From Heterotrichella gracilis (Eukaryota; Sar; Xanthophyceae; Tribonematales; Xanthonemataceae), in assembly GCA_032358255.1 (NCBI GenBank), contig JAULBX010007773.1, forward strand, positions 248,001 through 312,000: a stretch of 64,000 bases of DNA. The letters run 5' to 3'. Every line of letters starts with the position of its first letter. Position 1 is the stretch's first letter. This document shows positions 570 to 63,795 of the stretch, piece by piece. The position numbers and the translations under genes are program-made. The notes under the pieces were generated by a model, which was not told the DNA's origin, made no database searches, and was given only the letters and a program-made list of their open reading frames with translations.

Positions 570-2360
570 ATGGCTGATCCAAATGTTGACCCCCAGTCTC
601 CTGGCCCCTCTCTTGGTGCCCCAACTGATAACATGGAGGACACAGAAATGGCTGCTACTCTGGGTCTCATGGACCAGGATACAGAAGTGAATGATGCTCC
701 AGCTGCTGCACTGGCTGGGAGTGGTGCTGGGGCAGCAGGTGACACTCAGGCTGACCCAACCCAGGCCATACTCACAGATACCGCAGTCACAGCAGATGCT
801 GCTGTTGCAATCTCCAACATTGCTGCAACACCCACCTTCCAGCCAGATCTTTCCAACCAGCTGGTGGGGGACCATAGGACTGTGCAGGCGCTCCTCACGC
901 AGTTTAACAGGGCAGTGGCATCTGGGGATGAGAATCTGGTCTTCAAGCTTGGGGCAGCTATCTGTATACTGGTGAGCGGATTGAATCTGTGCATGCAGCA
1001 TGTGGCCATGGCAATGCGGTATTGCATGCTTCATGGTACAGTTGGGTGTACACATTAATTGTTGGGTGATATATACTAGCTGAGTGTGAGTGCCAACGGT
1101 TGTACCAGACAATCCTCAAGGTGCTGAAAGGGATGCAGTACTGCGATTGCCAATGGTTGTCGTAGGCAGGCAAACTTGAGCATGCTGTTGTACCTGACTC
1201 TGTAGACTTATGGAGGTGCTCCCATGACTGTAAAGAATCAAATACTACAGCATGCTGAAGTTTGCCTGCCGATGGCCTACCATTGGCGCGTGCCGGCAAT
1301 GCGCAGCGCTGCATCCCTTCCAGCAATTTTGAAGTGGTCTGACATTTCAATTTCACAGTGCATGGCCATGGTGCACATCAGCAGTGCTTCCCACTGTTGG
1401 TGAAAATCTCGTGGCAAGCAACCTGGTGCACAATACATGTGCCAGAATTGGGCACTGATACTTGTTGATTGTACGTATATGCTGTTATCAGACTATGTAG
1501 CCCGTCACAGGAAGTCCCTCCACAGATGCGTGTGGAGATGATATGATTGAGAGAGCTCCCGCATACTATTACCGGTACAATACTTCATTATAAATAATGC
1601 TGTTAATTGCAGATGCGCACTCATAGCCAGGCAGAGTTGGATGTGCTGTACCCACTGGTGGCAAGCTCCCTGCCCAATGGAGCAGAGCTGGCATCTGCTG
1701 CCCGTGCAGAGCATTCCCAGCTGGAGAAGGAGATGGCTGCAGTCAATGCCATGGGGCCTCACCCTGTGACGGATGAGCAGAGGAACCGAGTGCTGGAGTG
1801 CCCCTTTGTGAAGATGATGACCAAGATTGGGGCGGTAAGCAACTGCATGCGTCAGTGGAGCTCAGGTTGAGCTCAGAATAGAGAATTGCTTCCCTTATTC
1901 TTCCCCCTCGTTTGCCTGTCACTTTCTTAGAACACCAGGAGTCATGTGGCAGGGTACTGCATGACTGCATATCACGATCAACTGTTTCTTGTTGATTTAC
2001 AATATGTGCATGTGATACTCAATTTTGATTTTTGGCAATGGCTGCTAATGCCACAGTACCAGTCCAGAATTTAGTTTGTTCAGATAAAATGTGTTTACGA
2101 CCCGTTGCAGCCCCAGAACTGCAACGCTACAGCGCGCAGTGTGTGCGTGGTGCCCTGTAATCCTCTCCCAAGGCAGCGTTCCATTTCACCACCCCTCCTA
2201 TGCGCAGGACTTCACCCGCCACATCCTAGGCGAGGAGCAAGTGCTGCTGCCTGCCCTTGCCCAGGCTGTCACTGCTGAGGCGGCGGGTGCAGCGGCCACC
2301 TCCTTCGACATGGTCAAGCAGACTGCGTCACTCAGCCCCAGGCTGGACATCGAGCCCTGA
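570..2360 (+). CDS. Hemerythrin-like (HHE cation-binding) domain protein
   Basis: Exons 570-971, 1613-1834 and 2208-2360 splice to 777 nt, 258 residues. The first 95 or so residues are acidic, Ala-rich and low in complexity; the rest is one four-helix hemerythrin bundle. The ligand pattern of the family is complete: His102, His138 with Glu142 (HSQAE), His168, and His213 with Glu217 (HILGE). Two of the three exon joins fall inside the bundle and rebuild its helices with normal spacing, which supports the model. Such domains bind a di-iron centre and may sense or store oxygen or iron; the actual role here is unknown. There is no RING or CHY zinc finger as in BRUTUS/HRZ iron sensors. The start is the first ATG in frame. 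Intron 1 (641 nt) carries a long foldback. Confidence 0.82.
1100..1345. repeat. Long intronic foldback (inverted repeat)
   Basis: The segment 1121-1222 is an imperfect inverted copy of 1225-1326, with the apex near 1212-1222 (ATGG, short loop, CCAT). Matching blocks include GGGATGCAG with CTGCATCCC, GGCAGGCAAACTT with AAGTTTGCCTGCC, and CAGCATGCTG near the middle. Weaker pairing continues outward to about 1100 and 1345. It lies wholly within intron 1 of the hemerythrin-like gene. It could be a non-autonomous foldback element or a long microRNA-type precursor. Confidence 0.75.
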
Positions 2361-5338: not shown

Positions 5339-6440
5339 CACATCTGATGCTGGTCGGGATGTGTTTCCTCTGTGGCATGGAAGTGTTCCAATGGCATCCG
5401 CCGAGACACAGAGCCAGGGAACATGCAAAACAAAAGCGATGAATATTGCCCACGGCCAGCAGCACAAGGAAACAGCGGTCACCTTTGGGTTTGTGGGGCT
5501 GCATCAGCAAAGGAGCCGCATGCACAATGCTGGTCATGGGTGGGGAGGACCTTGAAGACACCCTATGGCTTCGACACGCCCACATCTTGTTCAATACTGC
5601 AAGGCTTGTCACCCACTCCCAGAACGGCAGCAGCTGCCACAGCACTAGTACGGTAACTGCACTGCGTGTCACAGGACTTCACAAATAACGGCCATAACAA
5701 TCTCTGGGCCATAATGCATATCTATTGGTTTTCTGGCCATGGTGCGCACTTTCCTGTTATACCAGGCCAACAAGTTTTTTTGCTGCTCGTCTTTTGAGTT
5801 TCATTTCCCTTCTTTAGTAGTGCACATGGCCGGCGGCCGCACATCTGGATCAGTGGTTAAATTTTCCTGCAGCAGCAGACCCATATCCTTCTATAAGTTT
5901 TCAGTGTTTGTCCTTTGCAAAGCCGTGCTTTTTTTTACGGGCATTATATTGCCGTGTTAGATCAATGATTGCACTCAGAAAGATAGAAAATCATCGCATA
6001 AGGCGCAAAATGTGAAGGCATCTCCTGAAATGACTTCGTGTAGATATAGAGTGGCCATGGCCCAGTGGGCATTGCAGGTTTGGTATTTTCCAGTGCACAA
6101 GCATATTTTGAAAGAAATTACCCAGCTCAGGAAAATACTCCAGGGATCATATTTCAACCTTTCAGCGAGGAGGAAACCAGGGTGCCCGGGTTGCAACGTG
6201 TTGTCATGCATATCACACACTGAACACAGCCAAAACAGGCACTTTGCAGGGCAGCTACTGTGCTGCATATGCAGTTTGAGTGGCATTACCTTGTCGCTCT
6301 TGAAAAACCTAGTCACGTTCCTGTAAGGCTTGCCGTGCAACAGCAGCTTGCGTCAGTCGTTCCTGCACCTCACCCCATTTCAAAGTTGAAGAACTGCCAG
6401 TAACCCGTGGCCTGTGCACTCTTGGAAGCAAGAAAACGCC
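5339..6440. other. Intergenic; no gene recognised
   Basis: Open frames on either strand (for example 5739-5960 and 5975-6340) are short, unlike known proteins and lacking convincing splice partners. The region should contain the ICMT 3' end and the FtsH promoter. No repeat stands out. Confidence 0.5.
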
Positions 6441-12650
<6,210 letters not shown>

Positions 12651-17514: not shown

Positions 17515-18807
<1,293 letters not shown>

Positions 18808-24358: not shown

Positions 24359-27300
24359 ATGCCTTCTGACTCGCCTCTGCCGCTACCTACCACTATGTCA
24401 CGAGCACAGGAGGGGCTGGTGACAAGTGGCAAGCAGGATGAAGAAAGCACAGGGCCCTCTGCACCCATCATTGTAGTATCAGAAGCCTCCACGGGGATGA
24501 GTGCGATCGCCCGTCTCTTGCAGCTCCAGCAGTCAGCATTCAGCATGGCTATCAGCGCTGTAGCACCGCAGCTGCAAGCGGCTGAAGACAGCCAAAAGCA
24601 GCTTGAAGATGGTGGCATGGATCAAATAGCAGCAGCAGACAGTGCTCCCACAACTGCAGCGCCACCTGTTGCAGTGATGGCAGCTCCAACGCTGGAGTTG
24701 CACACGGACAGCGCGCTGCAAGAGGAAGCCCTCGTGGACGCCCTTGTTTGTGCAGATGAGAACCCAGCAGACCTAGACGCAATTGCACCAGCAGGGCCAG
24801 TGGAAGCGCTGGCAGGGCCAGTGGAAGCGCCGGCAGGACCAGTGGAAGCTCTCGCACCAGTAGGGCCAATGGAAGCACTTGCACCAGCAGGGCCAGTGGA
24901 AGCACTTGCACCTGCAGGGCCAGTGGAAACGTCTCCTCCCTCAGCCGTAGCATCTGGTGCTTCAGGTGCAGCTGGAAGTGGCTTGGAGGGTGGGGAGGCC
25001 AAGCGCAAAGCGGTGCGTGTCCTGTGCGTCTGTTGACTACAGTTGCAACACTGAGTTGTAAGGCATGAGCGCACCAATCCCTGCGCCAGTAATAGAAGCG
25101 AAGGCAGTCTGTTGATGCAGCAGTGAGGGCTCGGGCATTACTGTGGCTGATTAATCTTTGTTTTGCAGAGCAAGCGGGGCAAGCAGGAGCTGCACAGCCT
25201 GGGCATCACGCCTGGCATGGTCCTGGATGGCAAGCGTTTTCGGCGTTCGGTTGGTGACGCCACCACACCGCCTGCTTCAGCAACGTGCAGCCCACTGGGT
25301 GCAGCAGATGGTAGCAGCAGGTGAGGAAAAGGGTACAAAGGAACCACCTGCCAATATTCTGCCTGTGTCACAGTTCCAGAAGAGTGCGTGTTGCCTCTGC
25401 GCGCTGGGTCAAGACAAGCCTTTCCCTGCTGTTGCGCAGGTTACTTGACGCAGAGGCGTCGTTGCTAGGAGCTCAGGACCTAGCAACACTGACACACAGG
25501 TAGGGTTGCTGAGCACGATGCATACCCTAACTTTTTTGGGGTTGCCGTCCGCACACCACACCCTGTCCCCGTTTTGAACTCGATCTTTGCAGCAAGTTCT
25601 CAGTATCCCCATCCCATGCCTGCTTGCTTCAGGTCCCATGTGCTGGGTGATGGCCTTGGCATGCCAACTGTTGGTCCTGGTCTCCTGCAATCAGCCAGCA
25701 GGGGTGGAGTGGACCTGATGGCTGATATCATCGGGTAAGCATGCTATATACGCACAACCCCACAAGGCGATGCGTGTGGTCTGCATTCCTACCTCAGGCT
25801 AGTACATTGCTGCACGTGATAATGTAGCGGGGTAAAAATTAGTGCTTGCCATGCCACATTACATGGCATGTTGCTCCCATCTGAGGCATGTGCCCCCGTC
25901 CTCACAGGCAAGCTCAGGCTGCCCCGCCGCGCATCCGGGTTGTGCTGCCCAACCCCGGCGGAAGCAGGGCTGCATCGCTACCTGGCTGTTTGCCTGGGGA
26001 CCCGTGCGCATGCCCAGAGCCGCACCCGCACCCGGGCTCCGAGCCAGACCCCGCTGTGGTGCATGTGCCCCCCGGCCTCTCTTTGGAAACGGTGCTCAAC
26101 GCCGATTTCATGCGAATAGTGAAGCAGGTCCGTGCCCAGCACTCTCCACCATTCTTCATTATTTTATATACTATGCAATGCTTCGTTGCAATGTAAAGTT
26201 GTTTATGAATTCGTCCTATTTTTGTGGCGTACATTTTCACTTCACAAGATCAACCTGCGCATCGCAAATTCTTTTATTTGCTCAGCCACATTATTGATTT
26301 GCCCAACCACGTAGCATCCTACGGTGCTCGCCTCGGAAGCCTCACATGATCTTGTGAAACAGGTGGCCTACAGCGGCGACCCGCCCGCCAACGGCATGTT
26401 CCATGTGAAGCACGTTCTGCGCTCGGGGGCGCTGATGGGCCACTCGGTGGAGCACCGCAACCGCCAGGGCCGCATCACGCTGACGGGCATGGTCAACCAG
26501 GACGGCACCATCGCGTGCGACTGCATGGCGTGCAATGGGGGCCCCGTCAGCTGTAGTGAGTTTGAGAGCCACGCGGGGAGCACCTTCAGGCGGCCGGCGG
26601 AGGCGATTTTCCTCACCAGAATCAATGCCTCGCTCAAGGTGCGCGGGGTTGCAGGGGTGGCGTGAAGGGATTTGGGCTTTGGACGGTGTGGGTGTGTGGG
26701 GGATTGAGGCGTTTTGCAGGGGTGGGATTGCATGGAAGGGCAAAAGGGCATGAAGGATTGGGACTGCATTCCGTGGCCAGTGTGATTGGGATGCGGCCCT
26801 GCGTGATAGGTGCAAAGCCATGGCTACATGTGCAATGCCGTGTGTGCTCTGAGGATGTTTTACTTCAGGGCAGCGCCATGATTGCGTGGATGGTTGGTGC
26901 TGTGGTATGCATGGTGATATTAACCAGCTAATCAATGGTTGTGTGTGTGGCTGCAGGACGTCATCCTCATGCTGAACAGCGGCGCGGTCGACCCCAACAT
27001 GGACATTTGCGTTGTGTGCGGGTTTGGTGGAAACCTGCTGTGCTGCGACGGCTGCCCCAACGCATACCACAGGGACTGCTTGGAGCAGGAGGACATACCA
27101 CAGGTGGGTACTACTGAGGGGCGCAGCATTGGTGGTACTGGTGGGGTACTGGGGGCACGGGTGGAGTACTGGGTGCCATTGCACGGCGGCTCGGCAACCG
27201 TAAAACGCACACGCTGATGTAGGAAGTACCGTAATTACCAGGTACAGGGCCTAAGTGCGTCCTTGCTGAGGCTCAAATGGCCCAGGTTGGCTGACAGGCA

Positions 27301-37416: not shown

Positions 37417-37545
37417 TTACGCGCTGCCCTTGAGGTCGGCACCCACAGCATCCAGTGCAGTGCCGCACAGCCGCTGGCCTCGGCATACAACCCACTTGTT
37501 CAAACGCCGCCATTGCGCACCCACAGCGTCCAGCCGAGAGAGCCG
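37417..37545 (-). repeat. Two degenerate copies of the aconitase C-terminal coding segment
   Basis: Downstream of the aconitase stop, the minus strand codes GTALDAVGADLKGSA followed by a stop at 37417-37419. This parallels the real end [15 protein letters not shown] plus stop at 37547. Between them, at about 37505-37545, a poorer copy reads SRLDAVGA. All three are in the same orientation. The simplest explanation is tandem duplication of the gene end. Confidence 0.7.
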
Positions 37546-37546
37546 C

Positions 37547-40500
37547 TTAGGCGGAGCCCTTGGCGGCTGCGCCCATGGCATTGAGCGCCGAGCCGTGCCT
37601 GAACCACGTAAGCTGGTTCTCATTGAAGGTGTGGTTCACCTTGAACTCGTAGGTGGGGCCGTCGGGGTGCTTGCCAACCACCGTCAGCTGGGGCGCCTTG
37701 CCCTCGGCAAACTCAGCGAGGCCTGCGAGGTGACAGGAGGGGAGGGTGAGGGGACAGTTGGGGAACTGGGTGGCGCTGCAGACATCCGCCCGCAAACTGC
37801 AGGTGCGAAGTGCAGAACCCCAAGACCCTAAACCCTACAGATATATGCGCATCGTCATGCCGTGGCCCCACTTGCACCCTATGCACACACCCCTCACTTG
37901 CAAATCTCTCCCTTTCACACCCTAAACTCCCGCCACCCACCCTTGATGGACAGCTTGTCAAAGGGCTGGATCTTGTCGTAGTTAGTGGGGTCAAGCAAAT
38001 GTGAGTGGCAGCATGCCCTGCTATTTAACCTAACCCTTAATCCCGTCCTCAACCTAAACATGTCACCCCATACCCTTACCCCTCCGCCCCCCCACCACCA
38101 CCCCCTCCCACACCAGACACAAACACAGCACTCACCCTTGATGGACAGCTTGTCAAAGGGCTGGATCTTGTCGTAGTCAGCGGGGTCGGCAAAGGTGAGC
38201 GGCAGCATGCCCTGCTTCTTCAGGTTGGTCTCGTGGATGCGCGCAAAGGACTTGACGATCACAGCCAGGCCGCCCAGGTGGCGGGGCTCCAGCGCGGCGT
38301 GCTCGCGGGATGATCCCTCCCCGTAGTTCTCGTCGCCGATCACCACCCAGGGCTTGCCGGCGGCCTTGTAGGCACGCGCCACGCCGGGCACGGTGTCGTA
38401 CTCGCCTGTGGTGTGTTAGGGGGAGATAAATTTAATATTGATTATTTACTTCATCTGATTTTTAAACCAAGTTCTGCTGTGCGTTGACCTGGTTGCTCTC
38501 TTTTTTAACAAAACCCTAATCCCTGAACCCTGAACCTGAACCCTGCAATGGCCACCTCCGTCCCACCTGTGAGCTGGTTCTTGAGCGTGTTGACCTGGTC
38601 GTTCTCTGCGTTGAGCGCCCCGATGAGCAGGTTGTTTGAGATGTTGTCCAGATGGCCGCGGTACTTGAGCCAGGGACCGGCCATGGAGATGTGGTCGGTG
38701 GTGCACTTGCCCTTGGTCTTGATCAGCACCATCAGGTCCTGGGGGGGTGGAGGGGGGAGTGAGGACGCAAGGCGGTGGTGGGAATGCACTCAAGAGCAGG
38801 TGGCAGGGTTTAATGCACAGTAGTGCACCCGCATGCACCCACTGACTCGCCATTAATACCGCTTTCGTTCCACCACCTATCTTCTACTTCTTTACATCCC
38901 GTCATAATATGCGCCCCAAAATTTCATGAAAGGACGACATCAGCCCCAGGGAGCAGTCATGCACGCGACAAGGCAGCGCTCACATTGTAGTCCTTGCTGC
39001 TTCACTTTGTAGGTGTATAAGTTTAGGTTATTTGGGCTCACATCGTAGACATTGCTGCTCCACTTTTTGCAGATGTTTGAAGTTTAGGGTTTGGGGATTT
39101 TGCACTTACGTCGTAGTCCTTGCCGCTCCACTTTGCAAATGGCGTGAGCAGCTGCAGGCGGGTGCTTGCTGGGTCCACCACCACGTTGATGTCACCGCCA
39201 GCAGGGCCCTGGTAGGTGTCAACACCTGGGGTGGGGGAGGGGGTGGGGGTGAGGGGGGGCTGAAGGGTGGAGGGACGCTGTTTTGGGGGGGCAGCCCCTC
39301 ATGCACGCGGTGATGCGGCAGGTAGCAAGTACAACAGGTAGGTAGGTAGGCAAGCGGGTAGGTAGGCAGGTAGTAGTACAGCAGCAGCAGCAGCAGCAGC
39401 CAAGGCAGCACCAGCACACCTTGAGCAGCACCCCACTAGTTTGCGCACAACCCTGCCCGACTCATCGACCCCACCCATCAGACTCGCACCCAGCACACAC
39501 TCGGCACACCATTTCCACAACAACAATGATGACAGCTCATCACCCAATGGGGCTGTTCAGGCTGATCTCCCATGGGGTAATGGGTTTTTTGTTACAGGGT
39601 TAAGGGTGTGAGCGCACCTGGGTCAAACCCGTCAGCGGGCAGCTCATCCCCGAAGGGGCTGTCCAGGCTGATCTCGCTGCCATCGGCGGTGATGAGGGTG
39701 TCGCTCTCGGGATTGAAGGTGAGGTCGCCGGCAATGGCAAAAGCGGTGACAAGCTCAGGGGATGTGACGAAGGCGTGGGTGGAGGGGTTGCCGTCGTTGC
39801 GCGCCGCGAAGTTGCGGTTGAAGGAGGTCACGATGGAGTTCGCCTCGCCTGGAGGATGGGGTTTAGGGTTTAAAGATTAGGATTGAAGGAGGGGTGGGGT
39901 TTAGGGGTTTTGCCTTGTGGGGTGGCGGGCTTTCTAGTGAATGCTAAAGAGCCAGGTCTTCCGCTCACCCTTCTTGATCTCTGTGCGCCTCCACTGTCCG
40001 ATGCATGGCCCGCAGGAGTTGGACAGCACGGTGCCGCCCACCTTCTCAAACACGTCCATCAGCCCGTCGCGCTCAATGGTGGCGCGGATCTGCTCAGACC
40101 CAGGGGAGATGGTGAAGGGGACCTGCAGGGGAGGAGAGGGGTGAGGGGTTGGGGATGGAGGAAAGGAGGATTTGCATTAACACAGGGGGAGCCACCTGCA
40201 GGGGACAGGATTTTCAACGTTTGCACACAAAATGCAGCCAGCCAATCACGAATGCAAACCCGGTCCCTCAGCCCCAAACCCCTTCCACGCCACAGCACCT
40301 TGATGCCGCCTCCACACATGCACCAGCACCCGTGTATGCCCGTAGCCGGGCCCCCACACACCAGCTCTTGATAGCACACACACCAGCACCCCCACACCAG
40401 CACCCTCACACATGCACCCCACCACACGCACCTGCGCTTTGATTCCAGCTGCCAGCGCCTGCCTGGCCACGCTGGCTGCCCGCTGCATGTCCTCATAGGA

Positions 40501-43500
40501 TGAGTTGGTGCAGGAGCCGATGAGGCCGGCCGACAGCTTGGTGGGCCAGTTGTGCTCGCGCAGCGCATCGGCAAACTGCAAAGAGGAGAAGGGGAGGGGA
40601 AGGGTCACGCGGGTGTTTTGGCGGGCATGATGAGCGGTAATGGGGGGATCATGCGGAGTTCTCGGCACCTTAGGATGGAAGTATTTGCCACATGGCATGC
40701 CAGGCACATACCATTAATCAAACGGAGGGAAGAGATGGGCATGTGCCTGACCGACAATTTCCACAGCGCACCGCCTGTCGCCGATCATGACATGGTAACC
40801 CAATGCAACCTAAAGAACCCTTGCACAACCCGCACCCCATTTCCCAGCCTTCGTTTCCCCTTTTTGCAACGCCACCCTCCACCACCCTGACCCTCCCCAG
40901 CACCACCCAACCCACCTTGGACAGCGGGTGCGCCAGGTCAGGCGTGAATGGCCCGTTCACATGGGGCTCCAGCTCGCTGAGGTTGATCTCGATCACGCGG
41001 TCGTACTCCGCGCCCTCATCGGCCTTGAGGTTCTCTTGGAACGCCTCCGCCAGCTTGGCCGCTGGCTCCCTGCCGGTAGCCGCCAGGTAGTCGTACATGC
41101 GCTTGTTGTAGGGGAACATGGAGGTGGTGGCGCCGATCTCAGCGCCCATGTTGCAGATGGTGCCCATGCCTGCGGGAGGGCGGCGACAACTGTGGTGGGC
41201 AGGTTTGCAATAAACATGTTCCCCTTTGGCCCACCGCACTGCGTAAAGCAGAGACCTTTCAACCCTAAACACAATATAGGCACGACCTAAGAATGGCTGT
41301 ACCTGAAAGACGCCTGAACCATACGCGGACCCCATACCGCCCGCACCTGTGCAGGAGATGGTATCCAGGCCGGGCCCGTACTACTCAGTGACGGCGCCAG
41401 TGCCTCCCTTGACCGTCCAGGAGAGTCCAGGATACATGATAAATTAACCCTACACCCACCTGTGCAGGAGATGTTGTCCAGGCCGGGCCCGTAGTACTCC
41501 ACAATGGCGCCTGTGCCTCCCTTCACTGTGAGGATGCCCGCCAGCTTGCAGATGACGTCCTTGGGGGAGGTCCACTTGGACAGCTTGCCCACCAGCTTCA
41601 CGCCAATCACCTACGCAGCCGCACACGCGCGCTCGGGACCAGGATGAGAGTGTAGGGTTTAGGGTTTCAGATGCTCGGGGCCTGGATCAGGATGGCCCCC
41701 GACATGCGGTTAATGCGCTGGTGGGCATGCCGCGCACCCGCCAGCCCACAAGTTAACACAAGGCCGCATACACGTTGACACAAGGACTCTTAGCACCCCG
41801 GCTGTGCCAATGCGAGAGGAAGCGCCCCTGTCGCCGCCGCCCACTCTTACGCCCCCGTCCCAAGATCCTAGTTGAGTAAGACCCTAACCCTAGAGGGGCT
41901 GGTCCCACCCTACCTTGGGTGCTTTCAGCTCCCACGGCAGGCCCGCCATGACATCCACCGCGTCTGCGCCACCCACGCCCACTGCGCAGGCGCCCAGGCC
42001 CCCGGCGTTGGGGGTGTGGGAGTCTGTCCCGATGATCATCACACCGGGGTAGGCGTAGTTCTCCAGCACGATCTGCACAAGCCACGCCACAGCCGGTTCA
42101 GACGCTGGTGACAAGTTCGGGTAGCCCATTGGTTAGTAGCAAGCGATTCCAAGGGGGTACAGCAACACCAGCAGTCACTCTTGGCCAGTCTGCCCTGGGT
42201 TTGAGGGTTTCAGCCGAGGTGTTCAAAGTCCCAGACCAGGGTGCCAGTGGCAACCGTCACTGATGATAGGTAGCAAGGGCGCCAAGGTGTGATAGGACCG
42301 ATTCGCAAGGTGGTTTTCAGGCGTGCCCACCTGGTGGATGATTCCAGAGCCTGGCTTCCAGAAGCCGATGCCATACTTGGCGCCAGCGCTTGACAGGAAG
42401 TCGTACACCTCCTTGTTGGTCTTTACCGCGGCATCCAGGTCAGCAATGCCGCCAAACTTGTTGTCCCTGTTGACGCAGCAGGGCATATACCGTCGGGGGG
42501 GCTGGCTTGCAACAGGGTTGGTTTGGTTTTGGGTGGCTGGTTAAGTGCATCTCCTTGGGCCACAGGGCTATTGAGTGCATTCCCAGCAGCAACCACGGTT
42601 ACAGAAAAGGCTCTGTGCTTCGCAGGCACTTTGGCTTGGGTTTGGGCGAAAGCAGGTGGCTGCCTGCAGACCTCGCTGCAGACCCCTAGGGTAAGACAGG
42701 GCCCTAAGGCCCTGCCCTAGGGCCCTAGGGCCATTTTCGGACCCATACAACACACTTGTTGTCCTTGCCATGGTCCCACTCCCTGCTTCAAAAAGTACAT
42801 ACTCGATAAAGCAGGCAGTGAGATCACTGCAAGGCCGACAGGCTTGTTGTATGGGCCCGACAGTGGCTGCCAGCAGACTGTCGGGCAAAGAAAGGGTAGA
42901 GGTGCAGCTACCCACCTGTCAGTCTGAGGGGCAGTGGTGCCCTCGATCAGGTGGTCACAGTGGATGGTACTGGGGACAGCAGTCTTGGGCAGGCCTGAGG
43001 AGATGAACTGCAGCACAGCCATCTGGGCAGTGGCGTCTTGCATAGCCACGCGGTCTGCGGCACCACACAAAGAGGTGGTTGAGCTCAAGCTCCTGAAACC
43101 CAGCTGCGCTGTGAAAATGGCCGAGGCTAGTAGCCGGATGCAGTACATGGGTTGAAGAACAGAAATGGGGGTAACCTTCAACTGAGATGTTAATTGCATT
43201 TGATGCTGCTGTCAAAATAAGCAGTCCAAACGCCTGGCAGTGGCACAACAGGCTTCGGCTGTGGCAATGTGATGCCTGTCCCTGACTCGCGGGCTAAGCT
43301 CACCTGGACGGAGCCTCAAGTAGCTGACACCCCTCTGGATGTCCTGGCCCTCTGGGTCATCGAGATGGCCGTAAACCACCTGCCGCACGAGGAGCAAGGA
43401 AACAGTTACGATCCCAGTGATGTCCGGGAGGGTTTCAAGTGTTCACCATGCATACTGCATGTACCTCCTACCACTCGAAACCCAGGTGAGACACCTTCCA

Positions 43501-47977: not shown

Positions 47978-50900
47978 ATGGGCAAGAGCAGCAACAAGCC
48001 CCGCAAGGAAAAGCCCTCCCTAGAGCCCATCGCCAGCCAGCCAGACGATGGCAACACAAAGTTCGCCCGCGCACTGGGCTCGGTTGACTGGGAGACGCGC
48101 GAAAAGGGGCTCACTGCGCTCCGCCTGTATTTGACCAAGAAGGCAGGCATCAGCGAGGGCGATATGCTCAAGCTGTGGAAGGGGATCTTCTACTGCTTCT
48201 GGCACGCGGACAAGGCGCCCTTCCAGGTAACAGCCACACCCATCTGGCGACGCTAGGCTATTCATAAGGGTCTCGCGCAGCCATGTACTGCCGCACTGGC
48301 TGCGGGGGGACCAGCCTCCCTCGCCCATCTCGACTGTGGGCGTTATTATTCCTTGTCGTATACTGCATGCAACCCTTTCAATAACATCATATGCTGGCAC
48401 ATGTGGATACGTACACTGGAGGTGAGACGTTACAATACGTACATTGCCAGTGGACACGGTGCCTCACTGCGGCTGCGCACTGCAGGAAGACTTGGCCTCT
48501 CGACTAGCAGACGTACTACCGCAACTAACGCAAGAGGTACGTATCCGTCTTGCACTCGCTATAGCATACAGGAACTGCCAGCACTGCCCAGTTACCAACC
48601 TGCTGCGTCGTGCGTAGGCCGGCTTCTTGTACTTCCAGCACTTTGTGCGGACCATGCGGCGCGAGTGGTTTGGGATAGACAGGCTGCGGCTGGACAAGTT
48701 CATGATGCTGGTCAGGAAGTTCCTGCGCCAGCTCTTCCAGCAGCTGAGCGACAACCAATGGTGCGGGCGCATATGCATGCATATGCCCTCCACCATGCCA
48801 CACCTCTACCACACGCAGCCCCTCCCCCCTTGCACACACTCCACCCTCCCCTTGCACCTCACCCATGCCACCGCCACCCAGCCCACCGTCAGATCTCCAC
48901 AGCCCGTGCCATTCCCCCGCCACTCCACCCACTCCGCTGCCCACCCCCCACTTAAGACGTTCCTCAAGCGCCACCTGGACGTCTTGCGCACACGCCCTCA
49001 GCCATGCACCACTACAACGCATCTCCTCCCCACCTTGCACACATCCCCCACCCTCCCCTTGTGACACCCGCGTGCCCCCCCCACCCTACTCACCATTGAA
49101 GTCCCCCCCACGTTGTACACCCGCGTCATCCCTCCCACTTCCCTGCCCACCCCCCATCAGGAACGCCCCCCTCCTGAAGCGCCACTTGGACCTGCTGCGC
49201 AACGAGGTGCTGCTGCCCCACGACAACGCCATAGCGCTCAGCCTCAGCTTGCACCTGGCAGACATCTACGTGGGCGAGCTGTGCGACGCGCTGCGCACAG
49301 GTAGGGGATGCCGTGGACAGGGGGGAAGCACCGCCTCTTTACTCTCTTTTTTCTTGGACCCATTTTCTTTCACCGACATGCCTGTCAGAGACAGGCGCGT
49401 AGAAATTTTATGTGATCTATTTATGTATTATTTATTTATTTATTACGCGCTGCGCACAGGCACGCAGCCCAGCGGCGAGGTCCTGCAGGAGCTGCTGGAG
49501 CCGTTTGCCGCGGCAGTGGCGCACACCAACAGCGCGGTGCTCATCCAACGGATAGCGTAAGTTCATTACCACGACACCATCTTTAATTGTGGCACCATGT
49601 CGACTGGCGGCTGCTTCGCTTTGACTGTTGGATTGCCATTGTTGACTGGCCGCTGCAGTGGGTGGGAATCGGCAGGCTGAGATCTCTGCACCATGGGGCA
49701 CTTTTCTGCTGGACCCACCCATTGCTTGGACGCTGGTGGCCCACTCACCTGCTAGCACAAGCGCATGGCGTGCACGCGTACCAGTGCATTGCAATGCTCA
49801 GCACCCACACACCCGCGCCGTTGTTCAGGGATGGCGTGTTTGGAGCGGTTGCAAACGAGGTGCGCAGCCCGTCAGAGGGTGAGCCGCTGGCCAACCTGGA
49901 CGTGCAGCAGATGGCGCTGGACATCTTTGACCTAGGTAAGGGTTTGGGCAGGGGCCGCACACACTGGGCTGGCGTACGGGTGTACGGGTGCGGGGCAATG
50001 CGGCGGCGGATGCACAGAAGGGAATTGCTGCGTGCGCGGTATCATGCAAGGCTAGTGATGACACATCTGTTGCACACACCTGCAAGAAAGACTTCGCGCC
50101 GTAGACTGGCATAGCAAAGCAGGGACCTGAGGGTGACCTGTGGTTATTGTTTGCATGGGTTGTTGGTCTGTCGCAGGGCGTGTACCATGCTGTGTCAGGC
50201 AGGTGTGCACGAATTGTGCCTGAGAATGTCCCCTCTCCCCCAGGTGCCCAGTCAACCACCCGCGGCAAGAACCGTGAGGCGCTGTACCAAATCAGCAAAC
50301 AGCTGGAGAAGACCAGTGCCAAACGGGCCAAGGTTGTGGCCTCGGGGGGTGCGGAGGAGGCGCGCGGCAGGGACGCGGGTGGTGGGTCTGGCGCCGCCAC
50401 CCCCAGTGGGCGCGGGGGCAGTGGGGATGCCCCTCAGCAGGTTGGCGGCAAGCCTGATGGCCAGGGTGGGGCCGAGGGTAGCCAGGAGGGTGGCAAGAAG
50501 AAGGAGAAGAAGGACAAAATGGGGAAGAAAAAGGGTGGGGGCGAGCTGGCGGCGACGCCTGCTGATGGAACAGCAGCAGCCGGCACGCCATTGGCCAATG
50601 GCAATGCACACAGTCAGCCAGCTGATGCTGGGCCTTCGGACTCAAAATCTGCAGCTGAGCCAGCTCCAATGGGCAGCGTCAAGCGCAAGCGCAAGGAGGC
50701 TGTTGCAGGTGGAGGTGCCGATGAGCTGGCGGGTGCGGCGCATGCCAATGGCACCCCTGAGCCTCGCCCCAGCACGAGCACACCGGCGCCTGTGTCTCAA
50801 GGTGAGCGTCATACTGCACCGCATCCACATGTGGCACGGATTGCCTGCCATGCATGCGGTGGAGGGGCGTGCGCGTGCGTGTGCTGCACTGGATAGCCAT

Positions 50901-52334
50901 CATCCGCGCGGTCTTGCCCTCCTGGCTTCCCACGATGCTGCACCATTGTCGGGAGGTGCATTGTACCCATGCACGGTCAACACTGGGCCCAGAGGCAAAG
51001 CCAATCTACATCTAGATCAGTGCATTTTCCTATTACTTGATATCTTCTACACCTCCATATGCTATGGAATACAGTGTAGCAGCTCGTTAGTGAGACATCA
51101 TCAAGCTGGGACGCCGACACAAAAACCTAAACCCTAACTGCGCAGGCAAGCCCGCCCTCAGCACCCCCCAGCGCCTGCTCAAGCAGAAGCTCATCATCAA
51201 GCTGGGCAACTCGGTGCAGAGCGTGACGCCCCTGGCACAGCAGGACGCGCCCAGCACCCCTGCGGAATCCCCCGCTGCCGGGGCTGCTAGCGAAGGGAGC
51301 AAGCGCAAGAAGAAGCGCAAGGGGGGGATGAAGGATTTTACTGCTGGGGAGGGACCCGAGGCGGCGGCCAGCCCTTCGGTGGTGGGCAGTGGAGGTGGCG
51401 ATGCAGGTGGTGGTGGGATGCTTACCCCGCAGCATGCCGGCGCGCAGCTGTCCAACGGCAAGGTGTGTGGTGTGGATGGGGAAGGAGTTCTTTGGGTTTA
51501 GGGTTGTGGTGCAATGCTGTTTGACTATCATTTGCATATGTCTGAACTTAGGTTAAGGGTTTAGGGTTATTTGTAGCTGACTGGGTTATGGGGTGTGGTG
51601 GCGCAGGGTGTGGCCGACAGCACGGATCGCAAGAAGGTGCGGTGGGGCCTCAAGTCCAACCTCTACTTTGCGGTAGGCCAGCCCGTCCCGCCCTCTGACG
51701 TGCGCACGCCACCCTCAGCAAAGCCAAAGGTACACCCCGTAACCTTAAATTTAAACCATTCTTGGCAAAGCCCATGGTAGGCAACCAGCGCAGTACCTGT
51801 GCTGTTGCAGCACCTGCACTGCACATGAAGTGCAGTGGCACAGGAATGGGCTAGCCAAATGGGATTTGCTGTAACCATTATCCAATGCTCCATGGCACGT
51901 CCGTGTGCATGCAGCCTGAGAGCAACTGGGCCTTTTTGTGTCTTTATTTCCCCTTGGAAGCAGCATGGCATGTTGGCTCACACACCCACTGTGCATCCAT
52001 GTGGCATGTTCTTTCACATGCCATCTGGCAGCAGCTGCCAGTCAGTCACACGTTTCAGCTCACACGCCTTTTGTGAACCCCCCAGGGTAGCGCCATCAAG
52101 GCAGCCAGCCTCAGACACTTGGCGCAAAGCAGGCTGGCGGCCAGTGCCAGCAAGGCATCTAAGGGGGGCAATAAGGGGGTAATGCGACAAGGGGGCGGGA
52201 GCGAGCCGCGCCCCACCAGGCCCCGCGGCTGGAAGGACCAGAACGTCGGCTCACCAGCTGACAATGGGGATGCGCTCAAGACAATGAAGAGCCCAAAGAG
52301 CATCCCACGCGCAAAGGCGGCGCTGTTCTTTTAG
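47978..52334 (+). CDS. RRP1: Ribosomal RNA processing protein 1 (Nop52/NNP-1 family)
   Basis: Ten exons: 47978-48226, 48486-48536, 48618-48760, 49161-49300, 49460-49556, 49829-49935, 50244-50801, 51146-51462, 51607-51729, 52086-52334; 677 residues. RRP1 works in the nucleolus in 27S pre-rRNA processing for the large ribosomal subunit. The Nop52 domain fills about the first 270 residues: FARALGSVDWETREKGLTAL, LWKGIFYCFWHADK, FVRTMRREWFGIDRLRLDKF and LSLHLADIYVGEL. The second half is disordered with Lys-rich nucleolar-type clusters (KKKEKKDKMGKKK, KRKKKRKGG) and the conserved-looking RKKVRWGLKSNLYF near the end. Exon 4 and its acceptor have an upstream copy, and the intron after exon 4 ends with the same 15 bases that end exon 4. 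Confidence 0.9.
48938..48996 (+). repeat. Copy of the acceptor region and start of RRP1 exon 4 within intron 3
   Basis: CTGCCCACCCCCCA followed by a gap and CTCAAGCGCCACCTGGAC matches the true junction at 49143-49190 (CTGCCCACCCCCCATCAG, CTGAAGCGCCACTTGGAC). The pyrimidine-rich stretches before each copy also match, so the unit is about 205 bp and includes intron as well as exon. Confidence 0.75.
51124..51570 (+). repeat. Telomere-like runs in RRP1 introns 7 and 8
   Basis: CCTAAACCCTAA lies at 51124-51138, directly before the acceptor of exon 8 (51146). In intron 8, GGGTTTAGGGTT lies at 51493-51506, about 30 nt after the donor, and a second copy at 51549-51570, about 35 nt before the next acceptor. 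Confidence 0.8.
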
Positions 52335-58966: not shown

Positions 58967-61900
58967 TCACATCCTGTACTGCGGCTTGCTGTTCATCCAC
59001 TTGAGGCACCATTTGAGGTGCGTGAGCATGTACTTGAGCGCCTTGGTCCACTTGGCGTCGTTGTTAAACATGTAGCGAATGGTGAGGCCCCCCACCTTGT
59101 CAGAATCGATGGCATAGGGGGGGTCAAACACCTCTGAGCAGTTGTCGGCGATGTCCTTGGCCTGGGCAAACTCGGTGAACTCCTGCAGGGCGGTGTATAC
59201 ATGAGCAAATGCACATGCATATAATAATAAGGGACATAAATAATCATACAGTTGAAAATAATACAAGTGAACTTACATTATTTGATGCAGCAAACAAGTA
59301 GATGTATAATTTAGTGTTTGACAAGTATTTCTGTTCCCCACCACCCACCACCCCACCACCACCCTTTGCCTCCACCACCCACACACGCCACCCCACCCTG
59401 CGCCCTCCCTCACCTTGAGGCAGGTGATGAAGCACACCATTGCCTATTTTATGGTTTAGGGTTTTAGGGTTTGGGGCTACCTTGAGGCACGTGATGAAGC
59501 ACACCATTGCGCGATCGTAGGTTGCACACAGGTACTTGTTGACGGGCCCGTACAGCTCGTAGGTGGTCTTCTTGTCGGAGATGCGCGGGTAGGAGCCCAT
59601 GGGCAGCAGCCGGTACTGGGAGAAGTTGAGCTTGAAGGTCTGCGAGGGTGCGCTGGGGTGGGGTCGGGCAGGGGTCTGCAGGGTTTGCCATTTAGGGTTT
59701 AGGGGAGGAAAAGTTGAGCTTGAAGGTCTGCGGAGAACGGGTGGTGTGGGGTCACGACATCGGGCATCTAGGGTTTAGGGCAGAAGGAGATAATTAGGGC
59801 AGGGGCTTCAAGATTTTAGGGTCTCGTGGAAGACAAGGGCAGCAGGCGGCACAGCAGAGGTTGAGCTGGAAGTCTGTGCGGCAGGAGAGGCCATGCGGCG
59901 CAACATGGTAGCTGATCTCTGGGCATGCACAGCTGTGATTCCCCACTTTCACATGTCAGATTGTGAGCAGCAGCTGCGCCGCCTGCACCCCACCCCCATC
60001 GCCCTGGGGTACATGCCATCCCGCCCCAATCAAACGCAGGGGTGCACCACATCCCCACCCCACACGCAACCACGGCCGGCGCCCGCCACCTCCCACCACA
60101 ACACCCGCCTCCACAACAGCAAGACCCATTGCCACACCTCCCACCACCACCGCACCACCACCACCACCCCACCCACCTGCGCCATGGTGTGCAGCAGCAG
60201 CACCGCCTGGCCCCACGCCGCGTTGATCTCGTCCCACTCCACCGCCTGCGTGGGGGTGCGCCCCAGCCGGAACCCGCTGATGGTGCCAAAGGGCCCATCG
60301 TACCAAATGTAGAACACGTCGTTGTACACGTTGGTGCGGCGCAGGGCATCCAGCTGGCGGGTGGCCAGGTCGATGCGGGTGAGCATGGCGTCCCGCTCCT
60401 CCACGTGGCCCCGCAGCTGATGAGGCAGGGGGGGAATATAAGAGAAGAATTAAAAACAAAAATAATTTGTGTAGATTTTATAATAAAACTTATACTTAGT
60501 GCGGGGGTGAGAGGGGTGTCAGGGACGGGGTTGAGATGGCGTCCCGCTCCTCCACGTGGCCCCTCAGCTGATGGGGCAGGAGGGATATTTAAAAAAAGTT
60601 GAATTTTTGGACAAATCATTTGTGCTTATTTACAACGTATTATGATCATCTTAGTGCGAGGGTGAGCATGGCTTTGTGTTTCTATTGGAAAAGAATTTAG
60701 TGCGGGTACGAGGGTTTGTCAGGGACGGGGTTGAGATGGCGTCCCGCTCCTCCACGTGGCCCCTCAGCTGATGGGGCAAGGAAGGGATATGTTGCAAAAT
60801 GCCTTAAAATAAAACTGTTTTTGTTTTTGTTTTTGAAAAGAATTACATTTAAGTTAGTGCGGGGGCGAGAGGGGTGCCTGGGACGGGGTTGGGGGAAGAA
60901 TTGAGGGGGGGGGGGGTGCAGCAAGTGCGCATCAGCTTGTGTGTGTGAGCGTGGGCTTGCGCCCTTCCATGTGGTCATCCAGCTGCTGGGTGGGCGGGAG
61001 AGGGAGGGGTCAGGGGTGCGGCGTGGTGCACAGGTGGGTGGTGGAGCTGGTGTGGCAGAGGGTGGCGCAGGATGATGCAGCAATAAGGGGTGTGTAAGTG
61101 CCAATTAACAAATGTGATGACAATCATTAGTCAGGGAGTGGTGGACGCCATATCTTTGTCAGGGATCCTTGGTCAGGTGCACTGAACCTGGTAGTCACTG
61201 ATCGTGTAATCCACCACCATTTAATTCCTTGACGGAACTTGCTGTGGAAATCGTTGGTGAAGGGCTTCGAGTTTGGACCACAGCTTCAAACGATTTCCAC
61301 AGCCACTTCCGTGAAGGTAGCAAAGAGGTGGTGGATTACATAATCAGTAACTACAGGTACATTGTGCCTGACAAAGAAACCTCCTTGCGTTCACACTCAT
61401 CAGTAACCGGCACTTCTGGAATTTTGAAATGCCGCAATATGGGCGTGCCAAGCACACATTGCCTGCCGCATTTACCTGCCACTGAAACTCGTTGAAATCG
61501 TGCCAGTAGCGCTCCTCCAAGGAACTCAAATCCTGCACGCCATGCACACAGGACCCAATTAGCGAGCATGCCAGCATCACCATTGACAGTTTGTGATGGA
61601 CTCCCATGCACAAGGATTGCAGATCCCCCGCACGGCCAATATGGCAAGTACGCAACAGCAACGCATATTCTACACAAAATAAGACAGTGAAGACAACATT
61701 GCACCGGCGTATGTGGAGCTGAACGCAGTACCCACACGATGCACGTGTCTCCGACCCCCCAGCACACATTCAAATACCAGCTGCACTGCCCGCAGCAGCA
61801 GCAGTCTACCAGGACCCTAAACCCTAAACCTCAAAACCCTCAACCCACCTTGGATGCCAGGTGCACCACCCGCAGCAGCAGCAAACCACCGGGGACCCTA

Positions 61901-63795
61901 GACCCTAAGCCTCAAAACCCTCAACCCACCTTGGATGTCAGCTGCAGGCGCTGCAGCTCGCGCTCAGCATCCGCCAGCTCAGCAGCCAGGCACGCCACCG
62001 TGTGCCTGCAACATGCAGCGTAATTGGTTGATGCCACATGCTTCAACCCTGGCCCACCAGGAACTGGGGCATATGATTATCACATGGTACAACCGTACAA
62101 GATCGCTTGGTATGACCAGTGCCGGGATAGAAGGCTTGGCACGGCATATGCGACGCTGGCTGCTCATCTGCTGGAATCCATCACACAACTAAAGGAGACA
62201 ATCCAATCCCCTGCACTTACTTACACAACATGGCCATGACTTGTGTTTTGTATCCGCCCATGCACATTGGGCAAGCAATGCCAATGCCTGAATCCACGCC
62301 CTGCTGGACTGCAATCAACGCCCAGGAGTCGCCTGTTTAGGGTTTAGGCGCCTCTTTACTGGCTTGGCAGCAACCCAGTTTCCTCCACTGCTCTGCAGCA
62401 TACCTTTCTTGTTGCAGCTCCTCCTCGGCTTGCTGCAGCTGCTCATCGAATTGGCTCTGTGGCAAGGGCTCCCTGGGATCGTCCTACAGGCAGGGGCACA
62501 AAATTTGGCTTTGTGGCAAGGGCTCCTTGGAATTGTCCTACAGGCAGGGGCACACATGCTGTCACCACCACCTCTGCCACCCCATGCTGTCCCCATAACC
62601 TCTGCCAACACATGCTGCCACCACCATCCCTGCCACCACCTGCTTACCCCCCACCCCTGCCACACCGGCCCTGCCACCACAGGCTTTCACCACCACACCT
62701 GCCACAACCGGCTGTAATTCCCCACTCGTGCCACCACAGGCTTCCACCACCACGCCCGCCAATGCTGCACCCACTGCTCTCATGGCACTACCCCGGAGGG
62801 CGGCACACCACCGTACCTGCAGCCGCTGCAGCGCCTTCTCATACCGCTCCAGCTCCTGTTCTGACTCCACCGCCCGCTTGCCGAGCTCCTCGCGCAGCCT
62901 GGTGGCGCACTCGCGGCAGACCGGCTGCTCAATCTGCGCCAGCAGAGCACACGCTGTTGGCTCACCCTGGTTGCCGCCCCTAACAGGCGCGCGCTGGCAG
63001 ATACAGCCGTAAACAACCAAGTTGGATTCGCGCCAACCCCAAAACCCTAAACCCTGCACTTGATGGAGAAGCACAGTTGGTGCACTACGACACCGCAAGG
63101 GCTGCCACTCCCCGCTCATCCGCGTTTCCCCATATCACTGATGCTGATAAGCAGAGCTAGTGTGGGGTGACGCCAAGGGGGCTGCTGAGAACACTCCTCC
63201 CTTACCTGCGTCTCCCCCGCTGCCACCTCAAAGAGCCTGGTGAGCGCTTGGAAGGTGGCAGAGGGCCCCCCGGGTGGCTGCGTGGCGGGTACCCCTTGGC
63301 CGGGCTTGGGCGTGGAGGAGGGGGCCAGGAGCACAAAGGACTCCTCCATGCTGCGCGGAGGGCCTGTGACACGCAACCAGGGTTGTGGTTGGAGCCAGGC
63401 CTGAGGGATGCTGGTATGAGGTGTTCAGGGACATTTGGCAGCAGGTTGTGAAGGACTGCAGTGCATGGCGTGTGGCTAGTGGTAATTGCAACCCACCCGG
63501 TGCGCAAGTACATGGTATAGGTATGGTATGGGTAGGGGGAGTATCGCACCACACCTGAGGTGCTTGGCTGCTCGTTTGCCATGGAGCCTTTGCGCCCACT
63601 GACAGCATCGTCCAGTAGGATGAAGGACTCGTCGATCTTTGGGAGCCCACTCGTGCTTGCCCCTCCACCCTGGGTGGCCTGCTGGTTCTTGTACGGTAGC
63701 GCACTCCTCAGGGCTTGAGACGTGCTCTCAGTCCACGTGAACTGTAGCTTCACCTTGCACGACTGGCACTGGAAGGTCTCCAGGTTCATGGCCAT
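58967..63795 (-). CDS. ATG6: ATG6 / Beclin-1
   Basis: Nine exons on the minus strand: 63555-63795, 63206-63363, 62817-62933, 62404-62483, 61930-62005, 61476-61532, 60177-60416, 59481-59639, 58967-59182; 447 residues. ATG6 is a core subunit of the class III PI3-kinase (VPS34) complex in autophagy and vacuolar sorting. The start has the CxxC pair [12 protein letters not shown]; two acidic ESFILL/ESFVLL motifs follow. The coiled coil covers about 135-243, ending [13 protein letters not shown]. The BARA domain begins near 244 and has [56 protein letters not shown] and [17 protein letters not shown], closest to plant ATG6. The acceptor of exon 8 could also lie 36 nt upstream, in frame. Introns hold many exon-edge copies. 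Confidence 0.94.
59411..59446 (-). repeat. Copy of the donor edge of ATG6 exon 8
   Basis: The plus-strand word ACCTTGAGGCAGGTGATGAA, followed by GCACACCATTGC, repeats the true edge at 59479-59510 (ACCTTGAGGCACGTGATGAA) with one mismatch. The donor GT is retained, 67 nt further into the intron. Confidence 0.8.
59706..59885 (-). repeat. Copies of the acceptor edge of ATG6 exon 8
   Basis: AAGTTGAGCTTGAAGGTCTG at 59711-59730 repeats the exon start at 59623-59642 exactly for 20 bases, and the similarity continues into the flanking intron (GTGGGGTC). A weaker third copy (GGTTGAGCTGGAAGTCTG) lies at 59859-59876. A telomere-like run (59691-59705) separates the first two. Confidence 0.8.
60527..60990 (-). 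repeat. Serial copies of the acceptor edge of ATG6 exon 7 in intron 6
   Basis: Two strong copies (about 60532-60580 and 60732-60780) share TCCCGCTCCTCCACGTGGCC and the CAGCTGATG acceptor with the true edge (about 60390-60430). They lie 200 bp apart and each is preceded by GTCAGGGACGGGGTTGAGAT. A degenerate fourth at about 60945-60990 still codes [14 protein letters not shown], parallel to the exon start [15 protein letters not shown] copy of the spacer alone lies near 60857-60890. Confidence 0.85.
61168..61375. repeat. Long foldback in ATG6 intron 6
   Basis: Arms of about 95-100 bp are inverted around a loop near 61262-61281. GTAATCCACCACC (61205) matches GGTGGTGGATTAC (61327), GCTGTGGAAATCGTT (61241) matches AACGATTTCCACAGC, and GGTCAGGTGCACTG...ACCTG...AGTCACTGAT matches the far end ATCAGTAACT...CAGGT...GTGCCTGAC. 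Pairing is interrupted by small bulges. Confidence 0.8.
61780..61930 (-). repeat. Tandem duplication carrying a telomere-like run and the donor edge of ATG6 exon 5
   Basis: Two units of about 80 bp (roughly 61784-61858 and 61868-61941) share CCGCAGCAGCAGCA, a CCCTAAACCCTAA-type run, TCAAAACCCTCAACCCACCT and TTGGATG. The second unit's ACCTTGGATGTCAGCTGCA is the true donor edge of exon 5; the first unit's ACCTTGGATGCCAGGTGCA is its copy. Confidence 0.85.
62502..62555 (-). repeat. Copy of the acceptor edge of ATG6 exon 4
   Basis: It lies directly beside the true edge (62449-62500), 54 nt away, sharing TGTGGCAAGGGCTCC and GTCCTACAGGCAGGGGCACA. Use of the copied acceptor would keep phase but meet a stop before the real exon. 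Confidence 0.85.
63041..63056. repeat. Telomere-like run
   Basis: Two CCCTAAA-type units on the plus strand in ATG6 intron 2. A similar TTTAGGGTTTAGG lies at 62336-62348 in intron 4. Confidence 0.8.

Follow-up and report, generated by a model that had tools for sequence, protein, structure and literature searches.

Intron growth, shift and origin are usually inferred from rare single cases. In the genome of the alga Heterotrichella gracilis, a stretch of 64,000 nucleotides (nt), referred to here as the window (C79:248001-312000 of a 903-contig, 68.5-Mb assembly), and further sequence sampled from the same assembly hold many same-strand copies of the edges of protein-coding exons, lying in the introns that adjoin those exons and in many cases carrying the splice site with them. 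This exon-edge copying is a real, dense and unusual feature of the genome. About one intron in six of the sample is a readable, mixed-age record of duplication at its own splice sites, all within one genome, and such a record would let the rate, the survival and the splicing consequences of these events be measured directly.

Exon-edge copies and their controls

The analysed sample of 224 kilobases (kb) comprises the window, the 40 kb before it and 40 kb each of contigs C2, C10 and C20. Self-trained gene models, made without RNA data, numbered 43, with 265 introns and a clean splice consensus (CAG/GTRRGT and TGCAG/G, the slash marking the junction); 259 introns were tested, the other six being too short. 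The last 80 nt of each exon (plus 6) were compared with the following intron and the first 80 nt with the preceding one, gaps being allowed and a score of at least 14 required, and introns swapped between genes, exon middles, reverse complements and wrong-side introns served as nulls. Same-strand copies were found for 34/259 exon ends and 17/259 exon starts, where mismatched introns predict 0.6 and 0.3 (pooled, 51/518 against 0.9 expected). An earlier reading of the window from its letters alone, here called the sequence-only reading, had named beforehand the comparison of exon edges with exon interiors as one that could refute it, and in this sample the reading survived, with copies at 1/66 and 0/74 exon-middle windows (1/140 in total). 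The reverse-complement control gave 1/259 and 2/259 (3/518 in total), and the wrong-side introns 5/214 and 1/214. Copies were also found at 5/41 gene 3' ends (0.17 expected), and at none of the 41 gene starts tested. Altogether 45/259 introns and 16/41 genes are affected, with uneven density: copy-bearing introns amount to 20/60 on C20, 5/25 on C2, 2/40 on C10 and 18/134 in the window with its 40-kb flank (C20 against the rest, P = 0.0007).

From the ungapped repeat events, 48 of 190 were dropped as being of low complexity. Repeats scoring at least 25 within 600 base pairs (bp) were direct in 79 cases and inverted in 5, with 1 in the mirror control, and in 41 of 43 ungapped edge events the copy lies on the intron side of its own edge. 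The identity of the copies ranges from about 72 to 100%, and many differ by insertions or deletions (indels) and have unrelated flanks; the orientation and the spread of identities agree with the proposal of the sequence-only reading that local same-strand duplication of mixed age is at work. Over the exon-derived sequence of 49 copies out of 51, mismatches at codon positions 1, 2 and 3 stand at 15.1, 11.9 and 18.7%, and of 32 indels only 3 have a length divisible by three. The copies decay neutrally and look dead, and alternative (mutually exclusive) exons were set aside as an explanation on these same figures, the frame not being conserved.

Among the copies that reach the junction, GT or GC is kept in 20 of 23 donors and AG in 9 of 9 acceptors. 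The mean donor score is 3.5 for the copies against 6.1 for the used sites, and 9/23 copies equal or exceed the used site. Judged by their sequence, the copied donors and acceptors are potential decoy splice sites, as had been anticipated, and the expected lengthening of introns is seen as well (median 357 nt with a copy against 239 without, long introns also offering more room for a match). Complete or near-complete tandem duplications occur at 61930 (period 81), 62484 (period 54) and 49161 (about 207), and other events have a non-homologous spacer, for instance ATG6 60517-60578 and 60717-60778. The 138-nt spacer of this ATG6 event and the 106-nt spacer of an aconitase event at 38136 are both single-copy in the genome. 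Identical copies about an unrelated spacer cannot easily be produced by plain tandem duplication and are possible for partial tandem duplication with filler. Two further ideas about the shape of the copies were rejected. Homology seemed in ungapped alignments always to end just past the splice consensus (+2 to +12), whereas with gaps its end point scatters between -54 and +112 nt relative to the donor; and RNA-templated copying of splicing intermediates is expected to yield both orientations, whereas inverted copies are rare.

The sequence-only reading also held that the process is centred on splice junctions, and this claim is weakly supported, by an approximately twofold edge excess set against duplicates that are intron-internal too, the purging of exonic events and the longer recognisability of exon-derived copies. 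Local duplicates are found in 13/183 and 10/183 intron-internal windows (null 1.5 and 0.7) and in 15/415 intergenic windows, the last being a count without a null. Across the 183 introns of at least 190 nt, copies were seen for 29 exon tails and 16 exon heads, and for 13 and 10 of the corresponding intron-internal windows. In ten simulation settings, with duplications placed uniformly and then subject to purging and decay, the edge-to-intron ratio came to 0.59-1.10. Measured against expected ratios of 1.0, 1.2 and 1.5, the edge excess has pooled P values of 0.005, 0.03 and 0.18 respectively. The 99 ungapped genic events divide into 43 edge, 11 interior, 20 intron-intron, 21 exon-exon and 4 exon-intron, against 25.5 edge, 27.5 interior and 46.0 intron-intron for 99 random placements with the exon-exon and exon-intron classes excluded. 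Edge copies would be over-represented because duplications within exons must be lost and because a constrained partner keeps exon-derived copies recognisable for longer; the centring on splice junctions is then probably largely survivorship, with the twofold excess left over. Donor edges outnumber acceptor edges 34 to 17, which would fit a greater cost of an upstream decoy acceptor.

For the suggestion that introns could arise by such duplication the sample offers at most a candidate case. Flanking repeats of at least 10 nt bound 2/265 introns (0.25 expected), 49301-49459, which with its perfect 15-bp flanking repeat is a candidate gain, and 41347-41459, which rests on a doubtful micro-exon. 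Shorter flanking repeats, of at least 5, 6, 7 and 8 nt, bound 46, 28, 10 and 4 introns where 44.3, 20.6, 7.5 and 2.7 are expected, and are thus at or barely above chance. After telomere masking, 16 similar intron pairs from different genes were found, involving 26/259 introns; an introner or transposon-derived element shared among introns is thus possible, and no dominant one was seen.

Telomere repeats in spacers and introns

The filler between copy and source often contains telomere repeats, a feature that the sequence-only reading missed. The telomere word is TTTAGGG, which is very probably the real telomere repeat of the alga. Tracts of (CCCTAAA)n start no more than 10 bases from the beginning of seven contigs (C70, C140, C526, C609, C717, C770 and C824), these being drawn from 78 matches to (CCCTAAA)n of which some lie in the interior of a contig or at a position not given. 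A telomerase RNA-binding domain (PF12009) is encoded, above cut-off, on C626. Of all 7-mers in introns, telomere heptamers rank with the most frequent, at three to seven times the third-order expectation. They are present in 15 of 44 edge-copy spacers of 15-200 nt, where position- and length-matched segments of copy-free introns predict 4.6 (standard deviation 2.0, maximum 12 in 1000 draws), and in 9/19 spacers of intron-internal duplicates. By intron, 29/45 of those with a copy hold a heptamer against 61/214 of the others (P = 1e-5; P = 0.005 within 190-600 nt).

Perfect telomere-phase runs of at least 12 nt were counted in introns (40 in 70 kb), between genes (8 in 97 kb) and in exons (0 in 57 kb), with 2 in the backward-read control; the intron density is about 7 times the intergenic one. 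The window holds 15 of these runs, all inside modelled introns. Tract density per kb is 1.1 and 1.2 in introns 1 and 2 and 1.5-2.7 in later introns. Over the whole genome, telomere 12-mers within 25 nt of the strong 5' splice-site word AGGTGAGTG comprise 13 G-rich and 12 C-rich cases on the intron side and 1 and 2 on the exon side, and those before CTTGCAGG at 3' splice sites comprise 45 C-rich matches (42 places) against 7 G-rich; backward controls of the six splice-site pattern searches and of the contig-end search all gave 0. A rule that the telomere strand always points away from exons, as healing of exon ends would require, was rejected, since both orientations are equal at strong 5' splice sites genome-wide.

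In the introns of the sample, G-rich tracts prevail in the first 40 nt (32 against 12) and C-rich tracts 20-60 nt before the 3' splice site (24 against 9). Both CTAAA and CTGAC are most frequent 20-40 nt upstream of the 3' splice site, and masking telomere words cuts the CTAAA peak from 14 to 3, so that a telomere tract may act as a branch point. Survival accounts better for the orientation bias, which at 3' splice sites is equally compatible with branch-point selection. Base composition also shifts along introns, the first part being G-rich (G 0.296, C 0.218) and the last part C-rich (C 0.295, G 0.209).

Five places, picked for recurring telomere and splice patterns and hence not random, with exons and splice sites labelled by eye, contain arrays of such units. 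On C195 a unit made up of a telomere tract, a 3' splice site and about the first 34 nt of an exon occurs three times with period 80, and on C446 five units of this build recur with a period of about 94. On C244 the unit, present three times with period 110, joins an exon tail to a 5' splice site and TTTAGGG; C604 has three exon-head copies (periods 96 and 83) and C323 an irregular array. Such repeated units of tract, splice site and edge lend themselves readily to tests of the choice between near-identical splice sites.

Individual loci in the window and elsewhere

All six genes named by the sequence-only reading yielded their exon-edge copies on gapped alignment, the IDM1-like, hemerythrin and aconitase 3' cases weakly, and its exon numbers were not all matched. 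The names FtsH and IDM1-like are labels that it gave from sequence alone, and we adopt them as presumptive. Outside checking of the gene models was partial only: the aconitase model can be aligned with pig aconitase over almost its whole length (1080 bits), ATG6 and Beclin-1 align over the C-terminal two thirds (201.5 bits), and four proteins (hemerythrin, aconitase, ATG6 and RRP1) match their expected Pfam families. Two models in the window are fused, aconitase with an NDUFA9-like gene (named by eye) and RRP1 with the next gene.

ATG6, on the minus strand, has copies in 5/9 introns. An exon tail at 59479-59510 is copied at 59412-59443 (score 29.8) with a telomere-phase run at 59453-59464 in the spacer, and an exon head at 59619-59644 is copied at 59707-59732 (score 23.8), its spacer likewise holding a telomere run, the (TTTAGGG)2 at 59691-59704 that adjoins the copy. 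The segment 60184-60219 recurs at 59960-59996 (score 19.3). The exon head with its 3' splice site at 60359-60422 is copied at 60513-60573 (score 38.0), and a second copy at 60717-60778, beyond 138 unrelated nt, is identical to 60517-60578 over 62 nt; the intron here (60417-60755) sets AT-rich unique spacers beside GC-rich exon copies. Two near-complete tandem duplications follow, of 81 bp for the exon tail and 5' splice site at 61924-61946 (copy 61843-61865) and of 54 bp for the exon head at 62451-62489 (copy 62505-62543), and a repetitive stretch at 62634-62702 is copied at 62566-62633 as a minisatellite-like, low-complexity sequence.

Aconitase, also on the minus strand, has copies in five introns of its model and one at its 3' end. 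The strongest repeats the exon tail and 5' splice site at 38130-38215 in 37935-38021 (score 69.3; 94% identity in the exon part). Another exon tail with 5' splice site, at 39105-39135, is copied at 38979-39009 with a further copy between (38978-39066 against 39036-39134), and the exon tail at 41463-41529 recurs at 41350-41416 (score 42.8) with a telomere heptamer in the spacer. Exon segments at 39640-39675 and 38577-38607 are copied at 39533-39569 (score 25.9) and 38471-38501 (score 15.6), and the coding 3' end at 37547-37595 has a weak copy beyond the gene at 37417-37465 (score 16.0).

The remaining genes lie on the plus strand. In RRP1 the exon head at 49172-49229 is copied at 48961-49020, the whole duplication of about 207 bp leaving no filler over; the 15-bp exon tail at 49286-49300 is repeated perfectly at 49445-49459, the 3' end of intron 49301-49459; and a 15-bp segment within the next exon (51192-51206) has a perfect copy at 51096-51110 (score 15.0) with a telomere heptamer between. 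The exon 11 tail of FtsH (10520-10602) has a degenerate copy in the following intron at 10671-10751 (score 24.1, 72% identity over the extended alignment), a 22-nt telomere-phase run lies in an FtsH intron at 10875-10896, and a G-rich copy of the exon 6 tail (8484-8550) at 8562-8641 is weak (score 16.8) and, given its repetitive composition, doubtful. Weak copies also repeat a segment of IDM1-like exon 12 (29672-29703) at 29806-29838 (score 15.3) and a segment of the last hemerythrin exon (2317-2348) beyond the gene at 2615-2648 (score 16.9). Within coding exons of the IDM1-like model there are tandem repeats at 24785-24928, 30661-30811 and 31243-31529 (periods 27/21 and 42, and a duplication at about 150 nt).

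Outside the window, an adenylate-kinase-like exon (named by eye) at C2:121116-121608 occurs as three copies, staggered at distances of 178 and 214 nt and with splice sites included, and some of these copies are predicted as exons. Two intergenic places are repetitive in other ways: C2:128062-128513 is a dense minisatellite with nested periods of 20, 58, 78, 97, 117, 174 and 195, and C10:136872-137529 has perfect 77-bp repeats in a 40-kb block that also contains 100 N, so that an assembly join is possible. Contigs C1 and C100 (80 kb, about 36% GC) were excluded from the analysis; the stretches concerned, C1:1-40000 and C100:20001-60000, have long uninterrupted open reading frames and are probably bacterial contigs inside the algal assembly, C1 presumably encoding, to judge by eye, TonB-receptor-like and secreted-repeat proteins of Bacteroidota type and C100 a RadC/methylase-like protein.

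Origin of the copies and comparison with known systems

On balance the edge copies are probably scars left when staggered breaks were repaired by end joining, the filler being telomeric or of another kind. A staggered break would result from two nicks lying close together on opposite strands, the overhang Z (about 20-100 nt) would be filled in on both ends, and the ends would be joined, often after the addition of a few telomere repeats or other filler F, to leave the product Z-F-Z'. Where Z fell within an exon the gene would be broken and the event lost; where it fell in an intron or across a splice site the added DNA would be spliced out, and the event would survive with an exon-edge copy and its splice site left in the intron. 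The repeats would be added by telomerase, and a C-rich tract (CTAAAC) would be well tolerated near the 3' splice site because it could provide a branch point to the copy on which correct splicing depends. The layout Z-F-Z' is directly observed, as are the density of copies in the sample, their same-strand bias and neutral decay, the near-absence of exon-interior sources and the telomere repeats in spacers and introns; breaks as the cause, fill-in with end joining, and telomerase as the writer of the repeats are what we infer from them. A same-strand local copy lies beside its source, as partial tandem duplication by break repair requires, filler without homology separates some copies, as it does in some events of that kind, and the spacers contain the exact telomere word of the organism itself, as telomerase-inserted interstitial telomeric sequences do. 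A layout of Z-F-Z' with a telomeric F is proposed because two known processes can be combined: in mouse cells the filled-in overhangs of nick-derived staggered breaks yield tandem duplications (PMC5730883, in the part available), and in the horse telomeric sequence is inserted at breaks, some loci having a direct duplication of the target, according to the accessible portion of PMC7215372.

Several observations weigh against this account. Most edge spacers (29/44) have no telomere heptamer, and the two long non-telomeric spacers have no other match in the assembly and hence no apparent donor. Between genes, where neutral scars ought to persist as well, telomere runs are rarer by a factor of 7, and this is the weakest point of a model of repair and nothing else; the deficit suggests either transcription-linked breaks or selection within introns. 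Spacers of intergenic duplicates hold a heptamer in 2/19 cases; neither this nor the deficit is predicted by repair alone. Edges lie about twofold above a uniform model with purging, by an amount that depends on the model. Some complete tandems have little or no filler (49161, 61930 and 62484) and could be produced by slippage, to which the later copies in the multi-unit arrays may also be due.

In a rival that dispenses with telomerase, ordinary local tandem duplication (slippage or nick repair) occurs everywhere and telomere-like words are kept or selected in introns for their use in splicing, TTTAGGG as a good G-run enhancer near 5' splice sites and CCCTAAAC as a good branch point near 3' splice sites, introns being all that the two features have in common. 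It would explain the rarity of runs between genes, the 45 C-rich matches (42 places) to 7 G-rich before CTTGCAGG, the placement of G-rich tracts at intron starts (32 to 12) and C-rich tracts near 3' splice sites (24 to 9), and the CTAAA peak that coincides with that of CTGAC and falls from 14 to 3 on telomere masking. However, spacers are enriched over matched copy-free intron segments (15/44 against 4.6), so the tract goes with the duplication; both orientations are equal beside strong 5' splice sites genome-wide (13 and 12); and perfect multi-repeat runs are longer than a branch point needs. We regard this rival as rather unlikely. Breaks or template switches linked to splicing or transcription and placed right at splice junctions, for example by R-loops or by the nucleosome edges of exons, would agree with the concentration of telomere runs in introns, with the excess of exon tails over heads (34 to 17), with the twofold edge excess over the uniform model and with an edge-to-interior ratio of 43 to 11 where random viable placement gives 25.5 to 27.5. 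Yet duplicates arise in intron-internal windows as well, the homology has no fixed end (-54 to +112 nt of the donor), an edge excess over interiors is also expected from the purging of exonic insertions, and the size of the remaining excess hinges on the decay assumed (P = 0.18 at an expected ratio of 1.5). A junction-specific process is quite improbable.

Two other explanations have far less in their favour. Selection on the intronic copies as alternative or poison exons could account for the splice sites mostly kept (20/23 donors, 9/9 acceptors), but the copies are partial, one-sided exon pieces with frame-breaking indels, mismatches nearly flat across codon positions and donors weaker on average (3.5 against 6.1), and this explanation is highly improbable. 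An assembly artefact, through collapsed or expanded repeats or merged haplotypes, might be suspected in an assembly of 903 contigs with bacteria-like contigs present and near-identical copies such as 60517-60578 and 60717-60778; against identities of about 72 to 100%, many indel differences, unrelated flanks and recurrence on all four algal contigs sampled, it is scarcely credible.

The repair account can be extended in a more speculative direction, which we think unlikely as it stands. Telomerase might be a routine break-patcher of the transcribed genome, and the repeat a ready-made intron piece, its C strand CCCTAAAC supplying a branch point and pyrimidines and its G strand a G-run enhancer, so that breaks at intron-exon borders would be healed, duplicated and spliced out. 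If this were true, introns would be rebuilt and extended by telomere repeats at a steady pace, further decoy splice sites would arise, and such repeats could occasionally give rise to a new intron. The telomere link, if real, would tie intron turnover to break repair by telomerase.

Each ingredient of the pattern is known, with a precedent for every step, and the combination was not found described. No account of the density, intron bias and telomere link of exon-edge copies was found in the open literature searched, and the available part of the Coccomyxa genome paper (PMC3446292) does not mention the pattern. Partial tandem duplications are said, in work of Vaughn and Bennetzen from 2014 and of Schiml et al. 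from 2016, to come from the repair of nick-derived staggered breaks. The pattern described here resembles such duplications, as seen in the mouse cell data (PMC5730883), in its short same-strand local duplications, some with filler between. It differs in that the duplications form a mixed-age mass at splice sites and telomere repeats are a frequent filler, and in that the breaks are deduced from their products, neither induced nor dated. The gain of an intron in potato RdRp, as far as the accessible text of PMC4974935 describes it, came about by a duplication across an intron-exon border that copied the splice sites and made a new intron. The border-spanning duplication and copied splice sites are alike in the two cases, whereas in H. 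gracilis the copies lie within existing introns, and only 49301-49459 looks like a possible gain. Intron gain with short flanking repeats in Daphnia, as reported in the portion available of PMC3443670, has the logic of staggered breaks and flanking direct repeats in common with the present case, in which flanking repeats of 5-8 nt or more are, by contrast, at or barely above chance.

For the telomere repeats the nearest comparisons are the telo boxes of plants and the interstitial telomeric sequences of mammals. According to the accessible sections of PMC3022908, telo boxes in Arabidopsis and rice are concentrated in 5' untranslated regions without enrichment in introns, and those of Arabidopsis favour the first two introns. 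They are like the tracts described here in being telomere units scattered in genes, for which a telomerase model has been proposed there too; in H. gracilis, however, introns are richer than both intergenic and coding sequence, introns 1 and 2 are not favoured, and 5' untranslated regions lie outside the gene models. Telomerase-inserted interstitial telomeric sequences are likewise short tracts in single-copy DNA, some loci having a direct duplication of the flank; in the part available of the source (PMC7215372), the horse table lists duplication alone at 3 loci (4.5%), and the intronic share of the human sequences is said to fit random insertion. The tracts of H. gracilis differ from those of horse and human in being biased towards introns and tied to duplications.

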